This document shows, piece by piece, positions 6,545 to 33,610 of a stretch of DNA of 64,000 bases; within the stretch, counting starts at the first letter, position 1; every line of letters starts with the position of its first letter. Source of the DNA: an uncultured Candidatus Entotheonella sp. (GTDB lineage: Bacteria > Tectomicrobia > Entotheonellia > Entotheonellales > Entotheonellaceae); assembly GCA_951828535.1 (NCBI GenBank), contig OX639990.1:1289300-1353299 (forward strand), given 5' to 3'. The position numbers were made by a program, and so were the translations under genes. The notes below the pieces were generated by a model. That model worked only from the letters and a program-made list of their open reading frames with translations. It ran no database searches and had not been told where the DNA came from.

Positions 6545-8260
6545 TCAGAACAGGAAGTAGCGTTGCGCCAGCGACAACTGCGCCGCCGGCTCACAGGTCA
6601 GCTCTTGGCCGTCAGCCTTCACCACATAGGTCTCCGGATCGACTTCGAGTTGCGGCAGGTACGCATTGTGCACCATCGAGGTCTTGCCGATGCCACGGCA
6701 ACCTCGCACCGACGCTACGCGCTTCTCCAGGCCCAATTGCTCCGGCACCCCGCGTGCCACCGCGGCCTGCGAGACAAACGAATAGGCGGTGGCGAACTTG
6801 GCGCGCCCGTGGGCGCCGAACATGGGCCGGTACAAAACCGGCTGCGGGGTGGGAATGGAGGCATTGGCATCGCCCATCAGGCTGTAGGCGATGAAGCCGC
6901 CCTTGATGATGAGCGACGGCTTGACGCCGAAGAAGGCCGGCTGCCAGAGCACCAAATCGGCCATCTTGCCCACCTCGATCGACCCCACGTAGTCGCCGAT
7001 GCCGTGCGACAGGGCGGGATTGATGGCGTACTTGGCGATGTAGCGTTTCACCCTGAAATTGTCGTTCTCGCCCTGCTCCTCAGGCAGGCGGCCGCGCTGG
7101 CGCTTCATCTTGTCCGCCGTCTGCCAGGTGCGCAGCACCACCTCGCCCACGCGCCCCATGGCTTGGGCATCGGAACTCATCATGCTGATGGCGCCCATGT
7201 CGTGCAGGATATCCTCCGCGGCGATGGTCTCGGGGCGGATGCGCGACTCCGCAAACGCCACGTCCTCCGGCAGGCTGGGGTCGAGATGATGACAGACCAT
7301 GAGCATGTCGAGGTGCTCGTCCAGCGTATTCACGGTGAAGGGCCGCGTCGGGTTGGTGGAGGACGGCAGCACATTGGCCTCGCCGCAAACCCGCAGGATG
7401 TCGGGCGCGTGGCCGCCGCCGGCGCCCTCGGTGTGGTAGGTGTGGATGGTGCGGCCGCGAAATGCTGCGATGGAATCTTCGACGAAGCCGGCCTCGTTGA
7501 GCGTGTCGGTATGAATGGCCACCTGCACGTCGTATTCTTCCGCCACACCGAGGCAGCAGTCGATAGCGGCCGGGGTCGAGCCCCAATCCTCGTGCAGTTT
7601 CAGGCCCAACGCTCCGGCCTCGATCTGCTCGCGCAACGGCTGCGGCAGCGAGCCGTTGCCCTTGCCCAGAAAGCCCAGGTTGATCGGGTACTCCTCGGCG
7701 GCTTGCAGCATGCGGTGGAGGTTCCACGGCCCGGGCGTGCACGTCGTGGCGTTCGTGCCGGTGGCCGGACCGGTGCCGCCGCCCAGCATCGTGGTAATGC
7801 CGGAGGCAATGGCCTCGGGTATCTGCTGCGGGCAGATGAAGTGAATGTGCGCGTCGATGCCGCCCGGCGTCACGATCATCCCTTCACCCGCAACGACCTC
7901 CGTATTTGCCCCCACCACCAGTTGCGGATGCACACCGGCCATCAGCGCCGGGTTGCCCGCCTTGCCGATCGCAGCGATGTTGCCGTCCTTGACGCCGATG
8001 TCGGCCTTGACGATGCCCCAATGATCGACGATCAGCGCATTGGTGATCAGCAAGTCCGGTGCCTCGTCCGCCCCGGCCTGCGGCGATTGTCCCATGCCGT
8101 CGCGCAGCACCTTGCCGCCGCCGAATTTCACCTCATCGCCGTAGACGGTCAGGTCGCGTTCCACCTCGATGAACAGCTCCGTGTCAGCCAGGCGCACACG
8201 GTCGCCGGTCGTGGGCCCATACATCTGGGCATACGTCCGCCGCTCGATGGGTAAGCTCAC
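6545..8260 (-). CDS. ureC: Urease subunit alpha (UreC)
   Basis: The catalytic subunit (571 residues) that hydrolyses urea to ammonia and carbamate at a dinuclear nickel site. All expected residues are visible: H138 and H140 (DAHIH), the lysine that is carbamylated, K221 (GLKLHEDWG, with H223), H250 (AIHTDTLNE), H276 (HTYHTEG), flap residues C323/H324 (MVCHHLD) and D364 (SSDAQAMGR). The frame runs upstream to 8362, but GTG 8260 is chosen because it overlaps the ureB stop (GTGA) and gives the normal [16 protein letters not shown] start. It should assemble with UreA and UreB as (ABC)3. Confidence 0.97.
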
Positions 8261-8996: not shown

Positions 8997-10325
8997 CTAC
9001 AACGTGTAGCCAGCCTCGTTGTGCTGACTCAGGTCGAGGCCCATTTGCTCATCTTCCTGCGAAACCCGTAGCCCGATCGTCACATCCAGGAGCTTGAGGA
9101 TGATCCAGGTCACCGCCGCGGCGTACACACAGGTGGCGACCACGCTGATAATCTGCGGCCCCATCTGCGCCACGTTGCCGAAAAACAGCCCGTTCGTGCC
9201 GCCGACCGCGGCGGCGGCAAACAGGCCGGTCGCAAGGGCGCCCCAGGCACCACCGACACCGTGCACGCCGACAACGTCCAGAGAGTCGTCGTACCCCAGG
9301 CGGACCTTCATGACCACGGCGCCAAAGCACAACAGACCAGCCACGATGCCAATGAGGAACGCCGAAAGCGGCCCGACGAAACCCGCTGCCGGGGTAATCG
9401 CTACCAAGCCCGCGACCGCGCCGGTCGCGGCGCCCAGCATGGTGGGCCTGCCGGACAGGCGCCACTCGGCAAACATCCAGGTCAGCGCCGCCGCCGCCGC
9501 CGCCGTGTTGGTGGTGACGAACGCAAACGCTGCTGTCGCATTGGCTCCCAGAGCGCTACCGGCGTTGAAGCCGAACCACCCGACCCACAGCAGAGCCGCG
9601 CCAACAACGGCGAGCGGCAAGTTGTGCGGCGGCATATGCTCGCCCGGAAAGCCGCGGCGCCTGCCCAGCACAATGGCGCATACGAGTGCGGAGACGCCGG
9701 AACTGATGTGCACCACGGTGCCGCCAGCAAAATCCAGCGCCCCCATAGCGCCGATCCAGCCGCCGCCCCACACCCAATGGGCCAGCGGGTCGTACACCAG
9801 AGTGCTCCACAGCAGGCCGAAGATCAGGAAGGCGGAGAACTTCATGCGCTCGGCAAAAGCGCCCGTGATGAGTGCCGGAGTGATGGCTGCAAACATGCCC
9901 TGAAACGCCATGAACGCCAGATGCGGAATGGTGTCGGCGTACGGGCCGGCCTCGCCCCCTACTCCCATAAGGCCGAGATAATCGAGGTTGCCAATCACGC
10001 CGCCAATGTCCGGGCCAAAGGCAAGGCTGTATCCCCACAACACCCATTGCACGCTGATCATGGCCAGCAAAATGAAGCTCTGCATCAGGGTCGCCAGCAC
10101 GTTCTTGCGGCGCACCAGACCGCCGTAGAACAGCGCCAAGCCCGGCGCCACCATCATCAAAACGAGTACTGACGAGGTCAGCACCCAGGCGGTGTCGCCC
10201 GCATTGATAGCGGCCTCTTCCTGCGCCTGCACCACGCCCGGCGTCAGACACATCAGCAGGCCAAAACACATCCCCATTGCGGTCAAAGCCTGAATCCGCA
10301 CCTTGTCAATCAGCTCTGCGAACAT
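8997..10325 (-). CDS. amt: Ammonium transporter (Amt family)
   Basis: The 442-residue product starts with a probable cleaved signal segment (about 14-34, ending VVQAQ). Eleven membrane helices follow, with Amt signatures GLALFYGGLVRRKNVL, ALDFAGGTVVHISSG (conserved Asp and the first pore-lining His) and VVGVHGVGGAWG (second His region). Amt conducts ammonium or ammonia across the inner membrane. Its position inside the urease operon, between ureD and ureA, suggests ammonium scavenging or retention coupled to urea breakdown. No glnK lies beside it, so PII control, if present, comes from elsewhere. Confidence 0.95.
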   Translation of the reverse strand: MFAELIDKVRIQALTAMGMCFGLLMCLTPGVVQAQEEAAINAGDTAWVLTSSVLVLMMVAPGLALFYGGLVRRKNVLATLMQSFILLAMISVQWVLWGYSLAFGPDIGGVIGNLDYLGLMGVGGEAGPYADTIPHLAFMAFQGMFAAITPALITGAFAERMKFSAFLIFGLLWSTLVYDPLAHWVWGGGWIGAMGALDFAGGTVVHISSGVSALVCAIVLGRRRGFPGEHMPPHNLPLAVVGAALLWVGWFGFNAGSALGANATAAFAFVTTNTAAAAAALTWMFAEWRLSGRPTMLGAATGAVAGLVAITPAAGFVGPLSAFLIGIVAGLLCFGAVVMKVRLGYDDSLDVVGVHGVGGAWGALATGLFAAAAVGGTNGLFFGNVAQMGPQIISVVATCVYAAAVTWIILKLLDVTIGLRVSQEDEQMGLDLSQHNEAGYTL

Positions 10326-24040: not shown

Positions 24041-24153
24041 TAGGGTGATTGCCCGGGTGCACTCTTCGAAAATACGGTCGACCCGGTGCCTTCCAGAGCC
24101 TCTCTGTGATAAAGTTTCTTCCTGGACTTTCTGGCCGCCCGAGGAGTTATCCA

Positions 24154-24645
24154 ATGCCCGTCGTTGACACACTCAGACTGAAAACCAGGCTGTCGGATAG
24201 TGGCATGCCTGAGACCCAGGCACAGGTTCTTGTCGAAGAACTCGATGAGGCGCTGAGTACGGCAATCGCCGCCCAGGTCGCAACCAAGGCGGACGTCGTT
24301 GAACTGCGTGCTGCCATCAACGCCATCTATGAACGCTTCGAGCAGGTTGATAGGCGCTTCGAGCAGATGGATAAACGCTTCGAGCAGATGGATAAGCGTT
24401 TCGATGACATGAACCAAAGTGTCAATCAGCGCTTCGATGACATGAATCAAAGCGTCAACCAGCGCTTCGATGACATGAATCAAAGCGTCAACCAGCGTTT
24501 CGATGGCATGAATCAAAGCGTCAACCAGCGCTTCAACGATCTGAACCAGAGCGTGGCGCAAATGCGCTCCTGGCTGGTGGGACTCTATATCTTCATTGCC
24601 TTTGGCTTCCTCGGGATGATTGTGAAAGACATGATCCTCAAGTAG
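24154..24645 (+). CDS. Coiled-coil membrane-anchored protein built of 7- and 11-residue repeats (DUF1640-like)
   Basis: The 163-residue protein has an N-terminal helical region (1-58), then repeats: R-F-E-Q-V/M-D-K/R heptads (61-81) changing at residue 82 to five 11-residue units RFDDMNQSVNQ (82-136). A C-terminal transmembrane segment follows (about 140-158, WLVGLYIFIAFGFLGMIV). Hendecad repeats predict a nearly straight coiled-coil stalk. The layout recalls DUF1640/CCDC90-type small coiled-coil membrane proteins, whose function in bacteria is unknown. GAGGAG precedes ATG 24154. It is a solitary gene between the lyase and a GNAT gene on the other strand. Confidence 0.7.
   Translation: MPVVDTLRLKTRLSDSGMPETQAQVLVEELDEALSTAIAAQVATKADVVELRAAINAIYERFEQVDRRFEQMDKRFEQMDKRFDDMNQSVNQRFDDMNQSVNQRFDDMNQSVNQRFDGMNQSVNQRFNDLNQSVAQMRSWLVGLYIFIAFGFLGMIVKDMILK
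24397..24561 (+). repeat. 33-bp tandem repeat, five units, inside the coiled-coil gene
   Basis: Five consecutive 33-base units encode RFDDMNQSVNQ with small changes (DDM, DDM, DDM, DGM, NDL). The units are nearly identical at the DNA level, so copy number could change by slippage without breaking the frame. Confidence 0.85.
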
Positions 24646-28262: not shown

Positions 28263-28403
28263 TTACACGGCACGCTCAGGCGTGAGGGTGTGAGCGGGAA
28301 CCGGAGATGCAGAGCGGCGAGCGCGGCGTTCCTCAACGAGACTGTACAGGGTAGGCACGAGAAACAAGGATGAACAGCGCGGCGACGGATAAACCTGCAT
28401 CGG
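28263..28403 (-). pseudogene. Remnant of the 3' end of an RND efflux transporter gene
   Basis: On the minus strand the sequence encodes GLSVAALFIL, then, after a one-base frameshift, FLVPTLYSLVEERRARR and a diverged tail ending PERAV with a stop at 28263-28265. The same segment ends the intact RND gene at 30.5 kb (GLSVAALFTLFLVPTLYSLVEERRDRR). Upstream of about 28403 the similarity stops. It is an orphan fragment, either of a lost second RND gene or left when the AAA-PIN cassette inserted. The rest of the 28144-28622 interval holds nothing I recognise. Confidence 0.75.
28322..28389 (-). repeat. Direct repeat copy A flanking the AAA-PIN cassette
   Basis: This stretch matches 30535-30601 in the same orientation with about four mismatches and one extra base. 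The extra base causes the frameshift in the RND remnant. The two copies enclose the PIN and AAA genes. Confidence 0.8.
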
Positions 28404-28622
28404 TGGGTCAGCAGGATGCCGTGTCGGGCTGTCCTTGAGGCCGAATTGGCAGGCGCGGCTCACGACCAGACCGGCAGCAAGCCGTTGCGTTCCGCGGGCT
28501 GTAATCAAAATGGCGGCACGGCCTGCGAGTCAGGTTCTTGTCTGGAGATAATCCCGTGAAGCAGACTGAATCAATACGGCAGGACTGGTGGAGATGAACG
28601 GGGATATGAGGAAACAGATCCG

Positions 28623-29105
28623 TCATGCCTTGTCGGCATATTCGGGGCAAAGCTGAACAACCGTTACGCCCAGACTGTCCAACAGATCGACATGTTCGTT
28701 CCAATCACTGTCCGTAGCATTCAGAATTGGTGCCTTCGCCACAACCGCAACTGCGAGGAATTTCCTGTCAGCGGGATCAAGAAAATTGGGCGGCAATTCC
28801 GCGAAGCCTCGATCCGCGCCAGACGGCGTAATTTTCACCCGGGACACCCGCTTGCGGTTGTAGTTGTATTGGTAATCGGACAAGTGCTTGAAGAACATGT
28901 GACCGATTCCAGGCTGCCCTGAAAAATTCAGGCGCCCCTGATACTCCTTGAAGATCAGTCCCCCTTCGTCAAGCACGACACGGTGCCGCTTGACCACTCG
29001 TTCCAGCTTCGAAATACAGGCAAGTTGGCAGTCCCGGTTCGCATGGGTGTCTCTACCATTGGCAACGACAGCGACGTTACAGTCCACGACGACATCCCTA
29101 CGCAC
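28623..29105 (-). CDS. PIN-like nuclease partner of the AAA ATPase
   Basis: A 160-residue protein starting RRDVVVDCNVAVVANGRD, a PIN-type first strand with acidic D8 (DxN), then candidate acidic residues E54 (IFKEYQG), D110/D113 (FLDPADRKF) and D132/D134 (LNATDSDW). The order and spacing fit the four-acid metal site of PIN ribonucleases, and the 55-100 region between motifs is longer than in VapC. No VapB-like antitoxin is adjacent. The start overlaps the stop of the AAA gene by eight bases, so the two are translationally coupled. I infer a nuclease effector gated by the ATPase; target (RNA or DNA) unknown. Confidence 0.72.
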   Translation of the reverse strand: MRRDVVVDCNVAVVANGRDTHANRDCQLACISKLERVVKRHRVVLDEGGLIFKEYQGRLNFSGQPGIGHMFFKHLSDYQYNYNRKRVSRVKITPSGADRGFAELPPNFLDPADRKFLAVAVVAKAPILNATDSDWNEHVDLLDSLGVTVVQLCPEYADKA

Positions 29106-30471
29106 CCTGTTGACACTCCCCTCTTCTTTTCAAACCGGCTTTCTGAATCGCCGCGATTTCCCCGAACTCATCCCCGAAGAAACCCTCTGGCCAGTTTTGA
29201 ATCTCGCCGAACATGTTCAACTCGAGATCTTCCAAAGACGCGGATAAACTGCTGCTACGGCAGAAATAGAGCTTCACGAGACCGTCCTTGCAGCCCCCCT
29301 CGGCCACTCGTCGCTGCAAGCGTCGTAGCAGGTGTTCGCTGTGGCTCTCCACAAGCACTTGCAGGTTTCGAGTTTTGGCCGCGGTGAGAATTACGTCGGC
29401 CAACCCGCTTTGTACCGAGGGGTGCAAATGGATTTCCGGCTGTTCCATCAAAATGGTGGATCCTTTCGGCACGAAATAAAGCAGTACCAGAGCCGGCAGC
29501 ACCTGTGAGATGCCGAATCCCACGTCTGTCAACAGAACCTTTGGACTTCCTGAACCTTGTTGGACCAGGGCTTGGTACAAGTTTGAGCCAGTCACAATTT
29601 CCTCGATAGCGAAGGAGTGAATCAGCCCCAACTTTCGCAGCCAATGGGCAATGATTCCTTGGAATGATTTGTAATGGGTTTTACCGCCGAGGTTCCGTTT
29701 TTCATTCAGCTGGGTGGCGGAGAGAATCGCGTCGATGGTCCTTTCACCCCGCAATCCAACATCCACAGGTTTGGTGCCAGCCCAACGGTACTCTCGCTGC
29801 GGGTACTCGCGAAGCGGACCAAGGTAGAAAAGTCGGTCCATCAGCGTTTCATACGCATGTTCAAACTCACTCAGAAAGTCGGCGTTCTTGTAGTAGGTCT
29901 TGGCCTGATCTGGAAACAGGTAGTTCTTTACCGGTCCTGGCAAATCCCAGTTGCGGCCTTGGGTTCGCACAAAACGGAAAATGCCTTCAGAATCTCGATC
30001 TGGTTTCAGTTGGTAACTCGTTCCGCTTGGTGCTTTGGGTTTCAGCGAAAAGTTCCCGTCGGCAAATCGGTACGCAAGTTCGGTCCTGAGCTGCTTGCCA
30101 TGCTCGTAGATGACGCTGTCCATCTCCATTTCGTCACCGGAAAACAACACATCCGTACGACTTCCCTCAGGGTTGGAAATCTTCAATGTCTTAGGCAATG
30201 TCCATTTCAACACCGACCGCACGGGCAGGGTGTCATCGTGGCGGTGAATCACGTCTCGATACGTCCCCAGATTGACGTATTGGCCCGGACCGCCGAAATC
30301 AAGCACCAAGCCCCGGTCGGTAGCCGCTTTGGTCTGCTTCAACAATAACAGCCATTGCAGCAACGAGCTTTTGCCCGTGCTGTTGGGGCCGAATATGCCC
30401 GTCACCTGACCGAATTCAATCTCGAGCCGTTTCCAAATTTTGAAGTTTTCGAGCGTAAGATGGTTGAGCAT
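29098..30471 (-). CDS. AAA/ABC-type ATPase with DUF3696 C-terminus (OLD-like, no TOPRIM)
   Basis: The 457-residue SMC/OLD-class ATPase has Walker A GPNSTGKSS (28-36), an ABC-signature-like region TDVGFGISQVLPAL, Walker B STILMEQPEIHLHP and a switch histidine in LVESHSEHLLRRL. The C-terminus LELNMFGEIQNWPEGFFGDEFGEI matches DUF3696. There is no TOPRIM nuclease domain as in OLD or AriB partners; nuclease activity would come from the overlapping PIN gene. ATG 30471 was chosen over the longer open frame because it gives the standard LTLENFKIWKRLEIEF start and follows the RND stop by 10 bases. Comparable ATPase-nuclease pairs are phage-defence systems; that role is inference here. Confidence 0.85.
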   Translation of the reverse strand: MLNHLTLENFKIWKRLEIEFGQVTGIFGPNSTGKSSLLQWLLLLKQTKAATDRGLVLDFGGPGQYVNLGTYRDVIHRHDDTLPVRSVLKWTLPKTLKISNPEGSRTDVLFSGDEMEMDSVIYEHGKQLRTELAYRFADGNFSLKPKAPSGTSYQLKPDRDSEGIFRFVRTQGRNWDLPGPVKNYLFPDQAKTYYKNADFLSEFEHAYETLMDRLFYLGPLREYPQREYRWAGTKPVDVGLRGERTIDAILSATQLNEKRNLGGKTHYKSFQGIIAHWLRKLGLIHSFAIEEIVTGSNLYQALVQQGSGSPKVLLTDVGFGISQVLPALVLLYFVPKGSTILMEQPEIHLHPSVQSGLADVILTAAKTRNLQVLVESHSEHLLRRLQRRVAEGGCKDGLVKLYFCRSSSLSASLEDLELNMFGEIQNWPEGFFGDEFGEIAAIQKAGLKRRGECQQGA

Positions 30472-30481
30472 GATGTCTATC

Positions 30482-33400
30482 CTATCCGGCGTCCTGTAAC
30501 GCGGCGACAGGAGCCGGCGATACGAGACGACGGTCGCGTCGTTCCTCAACGAGACTGTACAAGGTAGGCACGAGAAACAGGGTGAACAGGGCGGCGACGG
30601 ACAGCCCACCGACCACGACACGGCCCAGGGGCGCCCATATTTCGCCGCCCTCGCCGAAGCCGATGGCCAGGGGCAGCAGGGCCAGGGCGGTGGTGAGCGT
30701 GGTGATCAGCACCGGCCGCAACCGCGTGACGGCGCCCCGCCAAGTGGCTTCCATGACGTCGAAGCCGCGCTGGCGAAGCTGGTTGGTATAATCGACCATA
30801 ATGATGCCGTTGTTCACCGACACACCCACCAGCATGATACCGCCGATCCATACCGGCATGCTGACGTTGGTGCCGGTCAGCCACAGCGCCAGGACGCCGC
30901 CCACCGCGGCGAACGGAACGGCCAGTAGAATGACGAACGGGTGCAGGAGCGATTCAAACAACGCCGCCATGATCATGTAGACCAGCAGCACCGCCAATAC
31001 CACGATGAGGTATACATTGCGGTTGGCTTCCTGCTGCTCCGCCCGCTCGCCGCCCATCTTCACGTAAAATCCTTCCGGAACGGCCGTGGCCGCGAGGAGT
31101 TGTTCGATCTCGGTGGCCAGGCTGCCGAAGTCGCGCGTGCCCGTCATGCCCGCCTGGATCGTCACCGCCCGCTCCTGGTTGCGCCGCTCAATCACGACCG
31201 GCCCCTTGTCCGCCCGCGCTGTGGTCAGGTTGCGCAGCGGCACCTGCTGGCCGCCGGGTGTGGCGACGAAAATGCGCTCCAGGTCAGCCAGTTCCCGGCG
31301 ATCCTCGGGGCGCAGGCGCACCCGGATGTCGTACTCGTGGCGGCCCTCGCGGTATTTGGACGCGATCGTGCCGGCAATGCCGGTTTCGATGGCCTGCAAA
31401 ATGGCATGCGTGCTGATCTGCAGCGCCGCCGCCTTGTGGCGGTCGATGCTGATCTGCATCTCAGGACGGCTGTCGTCGATGTTCAGGCGCACATAGGAAA
31501 CGCCCTCGACGGCCTCGATCCTGTCGGCCAACCGTTGCGCCAGGGCACGGCCGCGCCCCAGATCAAAGCCGTACACGTCCACCTCCAACCGCTCCGAGCG
31601 GCCTGAACCGAGAAGACGGGCGACATCGGAGGGGCGCTCCATGATCCGCACCTTACCGTCCGGATAATTCGACAACTGCTCCTTCAGCACGGCGAGGACC
31701 TCCTTGAGGGATTGCTGGCGCTGCGAGCGATCGACCAGGCGGGCCCATAAGAAGCCGCTGTGGGTGCCGCCGCCGCCCCGAAATCCCAAGCCGGAGCGCA
31801 CGAACATCGCCTGCACGTCGGGCGCCTCGTCGTATACCTTGGTCTCGATGTCAGTCATGATGCCGTCAGTAATCTCCAGCCTGGTGCCCACCGGCATTTC
31901 CAGGCGGATGTACATCATGCCTTCATCCACCGACGGCAGCAGCTCCGAGCCCAGGCTGGCGTAAAGTGTCCAGCTGCCGCCCAGAATGCAGGCGCACATG
32001 ACGACCACGGTCAAGCGATGACGCAGCGCAACGTTCAACGCCGAGCCGTACCCGCGTTCAATGGCCACGAGTACCGATCTCCACACCGCTTCCAGCCGAT
32101 AGGTCGGGCCCCCCGGCGGACTTTCCCGCAGTGAGCCCGATAGCCATTTAGCACACAGCATCGGCACCAGCGTCAGCGCCACGAGCAGCGACGTCACCAG
32201 GGCGAAGGCCACCGTTAGGGCGAGTTCCTGAAACACGATGCCCATCATGCCTTGCATGAAAATGAGCGGGAAGAAAACGCATAACGTCGTCAGCGTCGAC
32301 GCGATGATCGCCATGCCGACCTCGCGGCTTCCGACCACCGCGGCTTCCCGGCGGTCCGTGCCCTGTTGACGGTGGCGAAAGATGTTTTCCAGCACCACGA
32401 CGGAATTATCCACCAACATGCCGATGCCGAGGGCCAGGCCGCCCAGCGACATCCAGTTGAGGCTGATGTCGACTTGGTAGAGCAAGATGAAGGTGGCCAC
32501 CACCGCCAGCGGAATGGCAAAGGCAATGATGATCGTGGGACGCAGGCTGCGCAGGAACACCAACAGGATGACAACAGCGATGCAGCCGCCGATGATCGCG
32601 GTCCTCTCCACCTGGGCGATGGAGCGCCGGATGAAGGCCGCGCGGTCGAACAGCAGGTGCAATTGCATGGTCGGCGGCAACTGCTGACGCAGGGCGGGCA
32701 ACCGGGCCTGGATGAGGTCCGACACCTCCACTGTGTTGGTGCCCGACTGCTTGCGGATCGCCATGACGAGCCCGGCGATGCGGTTGACCCGGGTGCGCGT
32801 GAGACGCTCCTTCATCCCGTCGTGCACCTCGGCGACATCCTTGAGATACACCGGCGAGGCGCCGTCGTGGCGCAGGATGACGTCCCGGATATCGTCTACC
32901 CGCTCGAATTCGCCCAGGGGCCGCACCACGAAATCGGTGCGCCCGCTTTCCAGGTGCCCGCCGACCTTGGTGACGTTTTCGGCGCCCAATACCTCGACGA
33001 CGCGCTGCAGGGAAATACCCGTCGCGGCCAGCCGGGTACGGTCGATCAGTACCTGAATCTCGCGTTCGTCGCCGCCCCAGATATTGACGGCAGCCACGCC
33101 GGCGATTTGCTGAAGTTGGTACCGCAGCGTCGTTTCCGCGTAATGCCGGAGCGCGATCGAGTCCAAGGCACCGCCGGACGTGAGATTGAGGTAGATGATG
33201 TGCCAGCTTGAGGGATCGAATTTGCTGATACGCGGCGGGTCGATCTCTTCGGGCAGGGAGCGCAGGGTGTCGTTAACCTTTTCGCGCACCTCCAGGGCCG
33301 CCAAGTCAACGTCGGTGCTCCAGTTGAAGTCGAGGGAGATTCTCGAGCTGTCCTCGCTGGATGAGGACCGCACGGACTTGACGTTGTTGATGGTCGCCAG

Positions 33401-33610
33401 CACTTTTTCCAGCGGGTTGGTGACTTGGCGTTCCACGATGTCGGGGGCGGCGCCCTCATAGGTTGTGGTTACCGTCACCGAGGGCCGCGTGACATCGGGG
33501 AGTTGATCCACCGCCAGACGCGAGAACGAGATGAGGCCGAGCACCAGCACGGCCAGGAAAAACATCCCGGTAGTTACCGGTCGCGCCACGGCAAGTGCGG
33601 ACAATTTCAT
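30482..33610 (-). CDS. RND multidrug efflux transporter (AcrB/HAE1 family)
   Basis: A 1042-residue inner-membrane proton-driven pump with twelve transmembrane helices and two large periplasmic loops. It begins LSALAVARPVTTGMFFLAVLVLGLISF and has the duplicated halves expected, with GGLALGIGMLVDNSVVVLENI in helix 4 (proton-relay Asp region) and a related NNGIIMVDYTNQLR late. It should pair with the adaptor encoded 30 bases upstream; no TolC gene is in this operon, though one lies at 50 kb. The 3' end is partly duplicated at 28.3 kb. The AAA-PIN genes follow after 10 bases and may be read through from this operon. Confidence 0.95.
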   Translation of the reverse strand: MKLSALAVARPVTTGMFFLAVLVLGLISFSRLAVDQLPDVTRPSVTVTTTYEGAAPDIVERQVTNPLEKVLATINNVKSVRSSSSEDSSRISLDFNWSTDVDLAALEVREKVNDTLRSLPEEIDPPRISKFDPSSWHIIYLNLTSGGALDSIALRHYAETTLRYQLQQIAGVAAVNIWGGDEREIQVLIDRTRLAATGISLQRVVEVLGAENVTKVGGHLESGRTDFVVRPLGEFERVDDIRDVILRHDGASPVYLKDVAEVHDGMKERLTRTRVNRIAGLVMAIRKQSGTNTVEVSDLIQARLPALRQQLPPTMQLHLLFDRAAFIRRSIAQVERTAIIGGCIAVVILLVFLRSLRPTIIIAFAIPLAVVATFILLYQVDISLNWMSLGGLALGIGMLVDNSVVVLENIFRHRQQGTDRREAAVVGSREVGMAIIASTLTTLCVFFPLIFMQGMMGIVFQELALTVAFALVTSLLVALTLVPMLCAKWLSGSLRESPPGGPTYRLEAVWRSVLVAIERGYGSALNVALRHRLTVVVMCACILGGSWTLYASLGSELLPSVDEGMMYIRLEMPVGTRLEITDGIMTDIETKVYDEAPDVQAMFVRSGLGFRGGGGTHSGFLWARLVDRSQRQQSLKEVLAVLKEQLSNYPDGKVRIMERPSDVARLLGSGRSERLEVDVYGFDLGRGRALAQRLADRIEAVEGVSYVRLNIDDSRPEMQISIDRHKAAALQISTHAILQAIETGIAGTIASKYREGRHEYDIRVRLRPEDRRELADLERIFVATPGGQQVPLRNLTTARADKGPVVIERRNQERAVTIQAGMTGTRDFGSLATEIEQLLAATAVPEGFYVKMGGERAEQQEANRNVYLIVVLAVLLVYMIMAALFESLLHPFVILLAVPFAAVGGVLALWLTGTNVSMPVWIGGIMLVGVSVNNGIIMVDYTNQLRQRGFDVMEATWRGAVTRLRPVLITTLTTALALLPLAIGFGEGGEIWAPLGRVVVGGLSVAALFTLFLVPTLYSLVEERRDRRLVSPAPVAALQDAG
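30535..30601 (-). repeat. Direct repeat copy B at the 3' end of the RND gene
   Basis: Same-orientation partner of 28322-28389. It encodes the SVAALFTLFLVPTLYSLVEERRDR end of the intact transporter. About 2.15 kb separate the copies, holding exactly the AAA-PIN pair and a 220-base unassigned stretch. Confidence 0.8.

Follow-up and report, generated by a model that had tools for sequence, protein, structure and literature searches.

The overlapping ATPase and PIN-domain genes that lie behind an RND efflux permease gene in this Candidatus Entotheonella genome are an already catalogued candidate anti-phage system, HEC-03, and not a new one. Our preferred reading, to which we give a probability of roughly 0.6, is that the pair is a HEC-03 defence cassette, a PIN ribonuclease gated by an ATPase, that was inserted behind the RND stop codon with duplication of the end of the target gene. 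The insertion left the pump gene intact, with a decaying duplicate of its 3′ end on the far side. The features discussed below lie in a stretch of 64,000 nucleotides, here called the window, from a genome that is a single contig of 3.6 Mb.

30482-33610, minus strand: intact RND efflux permease gene, the target (ACR_tran, E=3e-274; 93% identical ortholog in the second Entotheonella genome, G001)
30479-30602, minus strand: repeat copy 1, the 3′ end of the intact RND gene (local alignment)
29098-30471, minus strand: HEC-03B ATPase gene, 457 aa (ORF calls)
28623-29105, minus strand: HEC-03A PIN gene, 160 aa, GTG start (ORF calls)
28390-28622, minus strand: 233-bp spacer between the PIN stop and repeat copy 2
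28263-28389, minus strand: repeat copy 2, a duplicate RND 3′ end that is displaced and frameshifted (local alignment)

The cassette and the duplicated end of the RND gene

The first-pass annotation placed the two genes directly behind the RND stop with an overlap of eight bases, and we reproduced the ORFs, their stops and the overlap (29098-29105); the ATPase gene starts 10 bp past the RND stop (30482). The cassette is flanked in the window by pump and GMC oxidoreductase genes with no defence genes, which is a point against the defence reading. A scan for promoters and terminators gave no signal above chance, and the spacer at 28390-28622 holds neither a trace of RND sequence nor a remnant of an RNA ligase gene. 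Elsewhere in the window, at 24049-24645 on the plus strand, we noted a 198-aa protein made of head-to-tail repeats of about 11 residues (NQRFDDMNQSV) with a C-terminal hydrophobic helix.

By local alignment, the two copies of the RND end extend over approximately 28263-28389 and 30479-30602 and are 87% identical over the aligned bases. They share a core of 73 bp at 82% identity (28297-28369 and 30510-30582), and the similarity extends past a 1-bp indel at 91% (28367-28389 and 30579-30601). The copy of about 68 bp and 93% identity that had been described earlier is real, and its inner ~68 bp come near the quoted figure. Within the genome, copy 2 is matched with E=2e-22 while the next best match is 26 bp, and we found no comparable further copies of the repeat in the genome of the window, so copy 2 is not a chance match. 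Its homology is limited to the last ~40 RND codons (RND residues 1002-1038), and it is frameshifted in the genome of the window.

The only same-genus relative in our collection, uncultured Candidatus Entotheonella OY282375.1 (L026 and L091), has the entire locus with unchanged gene order and 89% identity at the nucleotide level, the second RND tail included. In L026 the repeat copies are at 7315-7445 and 9515-9650, the latter being the ortholog of copy 2 (orthologous at 9518-9603). The architecture of the window is present in two independent chromosomes; most of the loci that we compared come from metagenome assemblies, in which chimeric joins are possible for single contigs. Within the repeat core, six sites are common to both copies of each genome and differ between the genomes, while one site shows the orthologous pattern and two are crossed. 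The six species-specific shared sites, which may be one tract, indicate that recombination or conversion between the two repeats has probably taken place one or more times after the species diverged. The RND repeat copies in each Entotheonella genome thus carry species-specific variants, a case of concerted evolution. We found no empty site for the window, since the sole same-genus genome has the insert and the gene order behind RND differs in G002, and no syntenic flank was present in G002, G003 or G004. There was also no intact second RND gene at this place, a comparison that covered one close relative.

Two linked proteins and a frequent third gene

With the PADLOC models (DB v2.0.0), the ATPase is identified as HEC-03B (E=2.1e-209, residues 1-450 of 457) and the PIN protein as HEC-03A (E=1.6e-62, full-length), in both cases far ahead of other models. 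HEC-03 is called from an HEC-03B match with an adjacent HEC-03A match, and both are found here. Because both proteins are full-length, top-scoring matches to these models, the term 'undescribed system' used in the first-pass annotation is wrong for the pair; 'uncharacterised' seems the right word for HEC-03. According to PMC12988326, HEC stands for 'Hma-embedded candidate' and originates in the preprint of Payne et al. 2024 (10.1101/2024.01.29.577857), several HECs were active in assays, with HEC-06 named, and most PDCs are unvalidated. The literature covered here, in which the founding preprint is not included, gave no phage-protection or RNA-cleavage data for HEC-03 beyond a listing.

The product of 29098-30471 is predicted, from its motifs and its structural model, to be an ABC/OLD-type ATPase with intact motifs. 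Pfam AAA_15, AAA_21 and DUF3696 are above cut-off, with DUF3696 at the C-terminus, and the protein contains a Walker A motif (GPNSTGKSS), a signature-like motif (GFGISQ), a Walker B motif (ILMEQPEIHLHP) and an H-loop (ESHSEH). The columns of all four motifs, including the Glu of Walker B, are invariant among 58 ATPase sequences. The AlphaFold model (pLDDT 88.7) has GajA, PtuA, OLD and SMC/Rad50 heads as its best structural matches, with Foldseek E-values of about 1e-11 for GajA, PtuA and OLD. Outside the genus, the closest relative of the ATPase belongs to a different phylum (66%; quick tree). Two genomes, G205 (L060) and G268 (L067), carry HEC-03B-like ATPases with no recognisable PIN gene.

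The PIN protein belongs to a divergent family that does not reach the Pfam cut-off (14.4 bits against a gathering score of 23.6), so that the assignment rests on fold and motif; no sequence match to solved structures was found at E<1. Its AlphaFold model (pLDDT 96) aligns by VIA-align to VapC21 with a Z of 10.3 and an rmsd of 2.8 over 119 residues, and the top rows are VapC, FitB and PIN proteins with Z of 8-10. The acids D8, D46, E54, D110, D113 and D132 are 96-100% conserved among 90 sequences. No loss of the active site is seen in the window copy, which has a predicted PIN fold and the putative catalytic acids intact. The Entotheonella proteins have two oddities, a C in place of T in the 'DTN' motif and an H in place of D at residue 69, positions that are otherwise more than 90% conserved in the PIN alignment, and these changes are a further point against the defence reading. 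PIN domains may also cut DNA or be structural, which is another point against that reading. Three cysteines (C26, C30 and C153), about 97% conserved, could form a metal site and are atypical of VapC.

The ATPase and PIN genes form a strictly linked operon. We scanned 84,980 genomes with peptides of the window protein as seeds and fetched the best 80 ATPase loci. The earlier annotation would have given up its cassette idea if the two genes were never conserved together; the opposite was found, since each of these best 80 loci has a PIN-family stretch that follows the ATPase directly. In 79 of the 80 this stretch is an unbroken ORF in the orientation of the ATPase gene, while the PIN ORF of L076 is split into two pieces, and 76 of the 79 continuous ORFs lie within 20 nt of the ATPase gene or overlap it, 46 of them by exactly 4 nt. 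In a sample of 386 genomes both genes were adjacent in 11, with the PIN gene alone in 1 and the ATPase gene alone in 2.

Such a pair could also be a selfish module resembling a toxin-antitoxin system, in which the ATPase would be the antitoxin that neutralises the PIN toxin, addiction would maintain the genes, and phage defence would be secondary. AAA/OLD-type ATPases are known as hub 'antitoxins' of ribonuclease toxins, and AAA domains of this type neutralise RNase-like toxins, as in the case of AarT (PMC10440598). The PIN fold is nearest to VapC toxins, and the one PIN-only genome among the 386 has an in-frame stop in its PIN gene. The first-pass annotation described the ATPase and the nuclease as separate ORFs with no antitoxin, and we likewise see no classical small antitoxin gene; the pair is accompanied by no other antitoxin gene. 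However, the genes neighbouring HEC-03 include PglX, BrxH, PglZ, BrxC, type I and III restriction genes and PDC candidates (in L114 the cassette lies between PglX and BrxH), and these frequent BREX and restriction neighbours together with the HEC-03 assignment suggest defence. Toxin-antitoxin and defence roles can coexist, and we consider a primarily selfish module unlikely.

A third gene of about 230 aa follows the PIN gene in 58 of the 84 loci with enough downstream sequence, commonly with a 4-bp overlap. These 84 loci comprise the best 80 of the scan and a small number from sampled genomes and from viral contigs, and because the scan was seeded with the window protein the fraction is valid for that set. 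Examples are at L126:3541-4230, L115:9934-10620 and L073:9822-10523, with 55 more. The gene encodes a PF09414 RNA ligase (E=1e-31 and 2e-20) in which conservation of the KxDG lysine and of further motif residues is 95% or higher (57 sequences); no PADLOC model matches it. The order ATPase-hypothetical-ligase also occurs on plasmids, an Aeromonas conjugative plasmid and a Tistrella megaplasmid, where the NCBI annotation of the third gene is 'RNA ligase family protein'. On an ATPase tree built by a quick method, ligase presence requires 6 changes, compared with a shuffled mean of 22.6, and at least 3 of them are forced by well supported branches. The window ATPase sits in a clade of 16 rows, including Neomarinimicrobiota, Methylococcales and Thiobacillus, in which no ligase was detected (14 tested, 2 short of sequence). 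No PF09414 ligase was found anywhere in either Entotheonella genome (G000 and G001), and the window holds a ligase-free form of HEC-03.

Arrival of the cassette at the RND gene

The proposal that a mobile pair of genes was inserted where the pump gene ends is supported by foreign GC content, a patchy tree, recurrent repeats and a parallel case at thiC. The GC content of the cassette is 52.8/54.2% against 62.2% for the window, and HEC-03 occurs in many phyla, with a patchy tree that crosses them. Brackets of direct repeats, 45 bp or longer and within 1.5 kb, are present at 9 of 78 HEC-03 loci and at 5 of 296 control positions (Fisher p=4e-4). As controls, as many as four random positions were taken on each of these contigs, with the span matched. 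When the window is left out together with one member of a close pair of Chlorobi loci, p=0.004.

The parallel case comes from a Thiobacillus MAG (L075:3776-8057), in which the cassette lies directly after the stop of a gene that we take, from its protein sequence, to be thiC. Beyond the cassette is a second, internally deleted thiC end, which runs into a terminator-like stretch similar to the native one of relatives, and in five Thiobacillus genomes thiC occurs without the cassette, i.e. as an empty site. The distal copy is the native end, which means that the end now on the intact thiC gene was acquired. At 5-8%, the divergence of the two copies is on par with that between species, which suggests that the incoming DNA may have brought its own thiC end rather than copying the end in place. 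About 5 kb of further DNA follows the cassette locus in L075 and is absent beside thiC in relatives. In two BREX loci the cassette is preceded by a degraded brxH 5′ end (L115:7715-7884 and L140:7566-7655), a second copy besides the brxH gene downstream, in mirror image of the thiC case.

Insertion with long target duplication has been described for restriction-modification genes (Nobusato et al. 2000, as cited in PMC3031569 and PMC1643837). Long direct repeats of the target surround the insert in the window as well, and by analogy the second RND tail fits the same pattern.

An intact gene with a replaced 3′ end and a displaced native end is the geometry of integration into the 3′ ends of genes. 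The cassette could accordingly have been placed at the RND 3′ end by a site-specific integrase that has since been lost, with the repeats as att sites, and the thiC locus, where the second copy carries the native end and terminator, has the features expected of this. However, there is no recombinase gene between the repeats of the window, and the repeats are unrelated among loci and can be 5′ gene ends, as in L115 and L140, unlike one fixed att site. We regard a lost integrase as rather improbable. Least probable is the alternative offered by the first-pass annotation, in which a tandem RND paralogue was replaced by the cassette except for its tail: RND permeases are often found in tandem and the two copies differ by ~13%, like the divergence between species, but just the last ~40 codons are present with no RND sequence upstream, identity to the remaining RND genes of the genome is ~30%, the thiC locus is built alike although its relatives have no tandem thiC, the bracketing repeats of the 9 loci derive from unrelated genes, and the ATPase-PIN linkage is conserved.

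Proposed action and comparison with known systems

If the pair is a HEC-03 defence cassette, a dimer of the ATPase would keep the PIN nuclease silent and serve as the sensor. In Septu, PARIS, retrons and PrrC/RloC, ABC-type ATPases from the same superfamily control effectors that are either separate proteins or fused to them. A signal derived from the phage or from DNA ends would alter the ATP state of the ATPase, and the released PIN protein would cut cellular or phage RNA, most likely tRNA or rRNA, which would halt growth before the phage completes. Metal-dependent PIN cleavage yields 3′-OH and 5′-P ends. Since an ATP-dependent ligase could join such ends without end-healing, the ligase-bearing form could be reversible, and in loci with the third gene the ligase would reseal the cuts directly as a brake or reset. 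The cassette itself would have moved by recombination with long target duplication, with no recombinase of its own. We propose tentatively, as something that may well prove otherwise, that complete HEC-03 is a reversible system of ATPase gate, PIN ribonuclease and RNA ligase carried by a recombinase-free, end-duplicating cassette, of which the Entotheonella copy would be a ligase-free, irreversible version.

HEC-03 itself is the closest known system, as both window proteins match it over their full length and their genes are adjacent. The differences are that the ligase of 58 of the 84 loci is outside the PADLOC models and that the window copy is ligase-free and outside any defence island. Two points go beyond the PADLOC HEC-03 models. 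The first is the conserved RNA-ligase partner, whose chemistry would suit the ends expected from PIN cleavage and from which RNA cleavage and reversibility are predicted; the second is the mode of insertion, which can be demonstrated by a displaced gene end and by empty sites in relatives. A link between HARP and an RNA ligase has been described (PMC12153264); its ligase family (PF18330) and its PIN are both different, and we regard it as an analogy only.

PrrC and RloC likewise place a ribonuclease under the control of an ABC-type ATPase, and the damage caused by PrrC is reversed by the phage's own RNA ligase (PMC2610378). In those systems a HEPN-like nuclease is fused to the ATPase and the phage supplies the ligase, whereas HEC-03 has a separate PIN protein and, in most relatives, carries the ligase in the cassette, where it would belong to the host. 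Gabija GajA, Septu PtuAB, PARIS AriAB and OLD share the ATPase superfamily and fold, and Septu and PARIS also combine the ATPase with a separate effector; in contrast to the PIN of the window, the effectors of Gabija, Septu and PARIS are Toprim (Toprim-UvrD), HNH and DUF4435, respectively. VapC toxins share the PIN fold and the acidic centre, yet the small DNA-binding antitoxin of the VapB type is missing here and the partner of the PIN protein is a 457-aa ATPase. The long-target-duplication inserts of restriction-modification genes resemble our loci in that a long, variable target repeat brackets a defence cassette with no transposase. In HEC-03 the cassette is an ATPase-PIN pair, the repeat is the end of a gene, and the copies have diverged by 5-15%. 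This mode of insertion would account for the spread of transposase-free defence cassettes, as proposed for restriction-modification genes.
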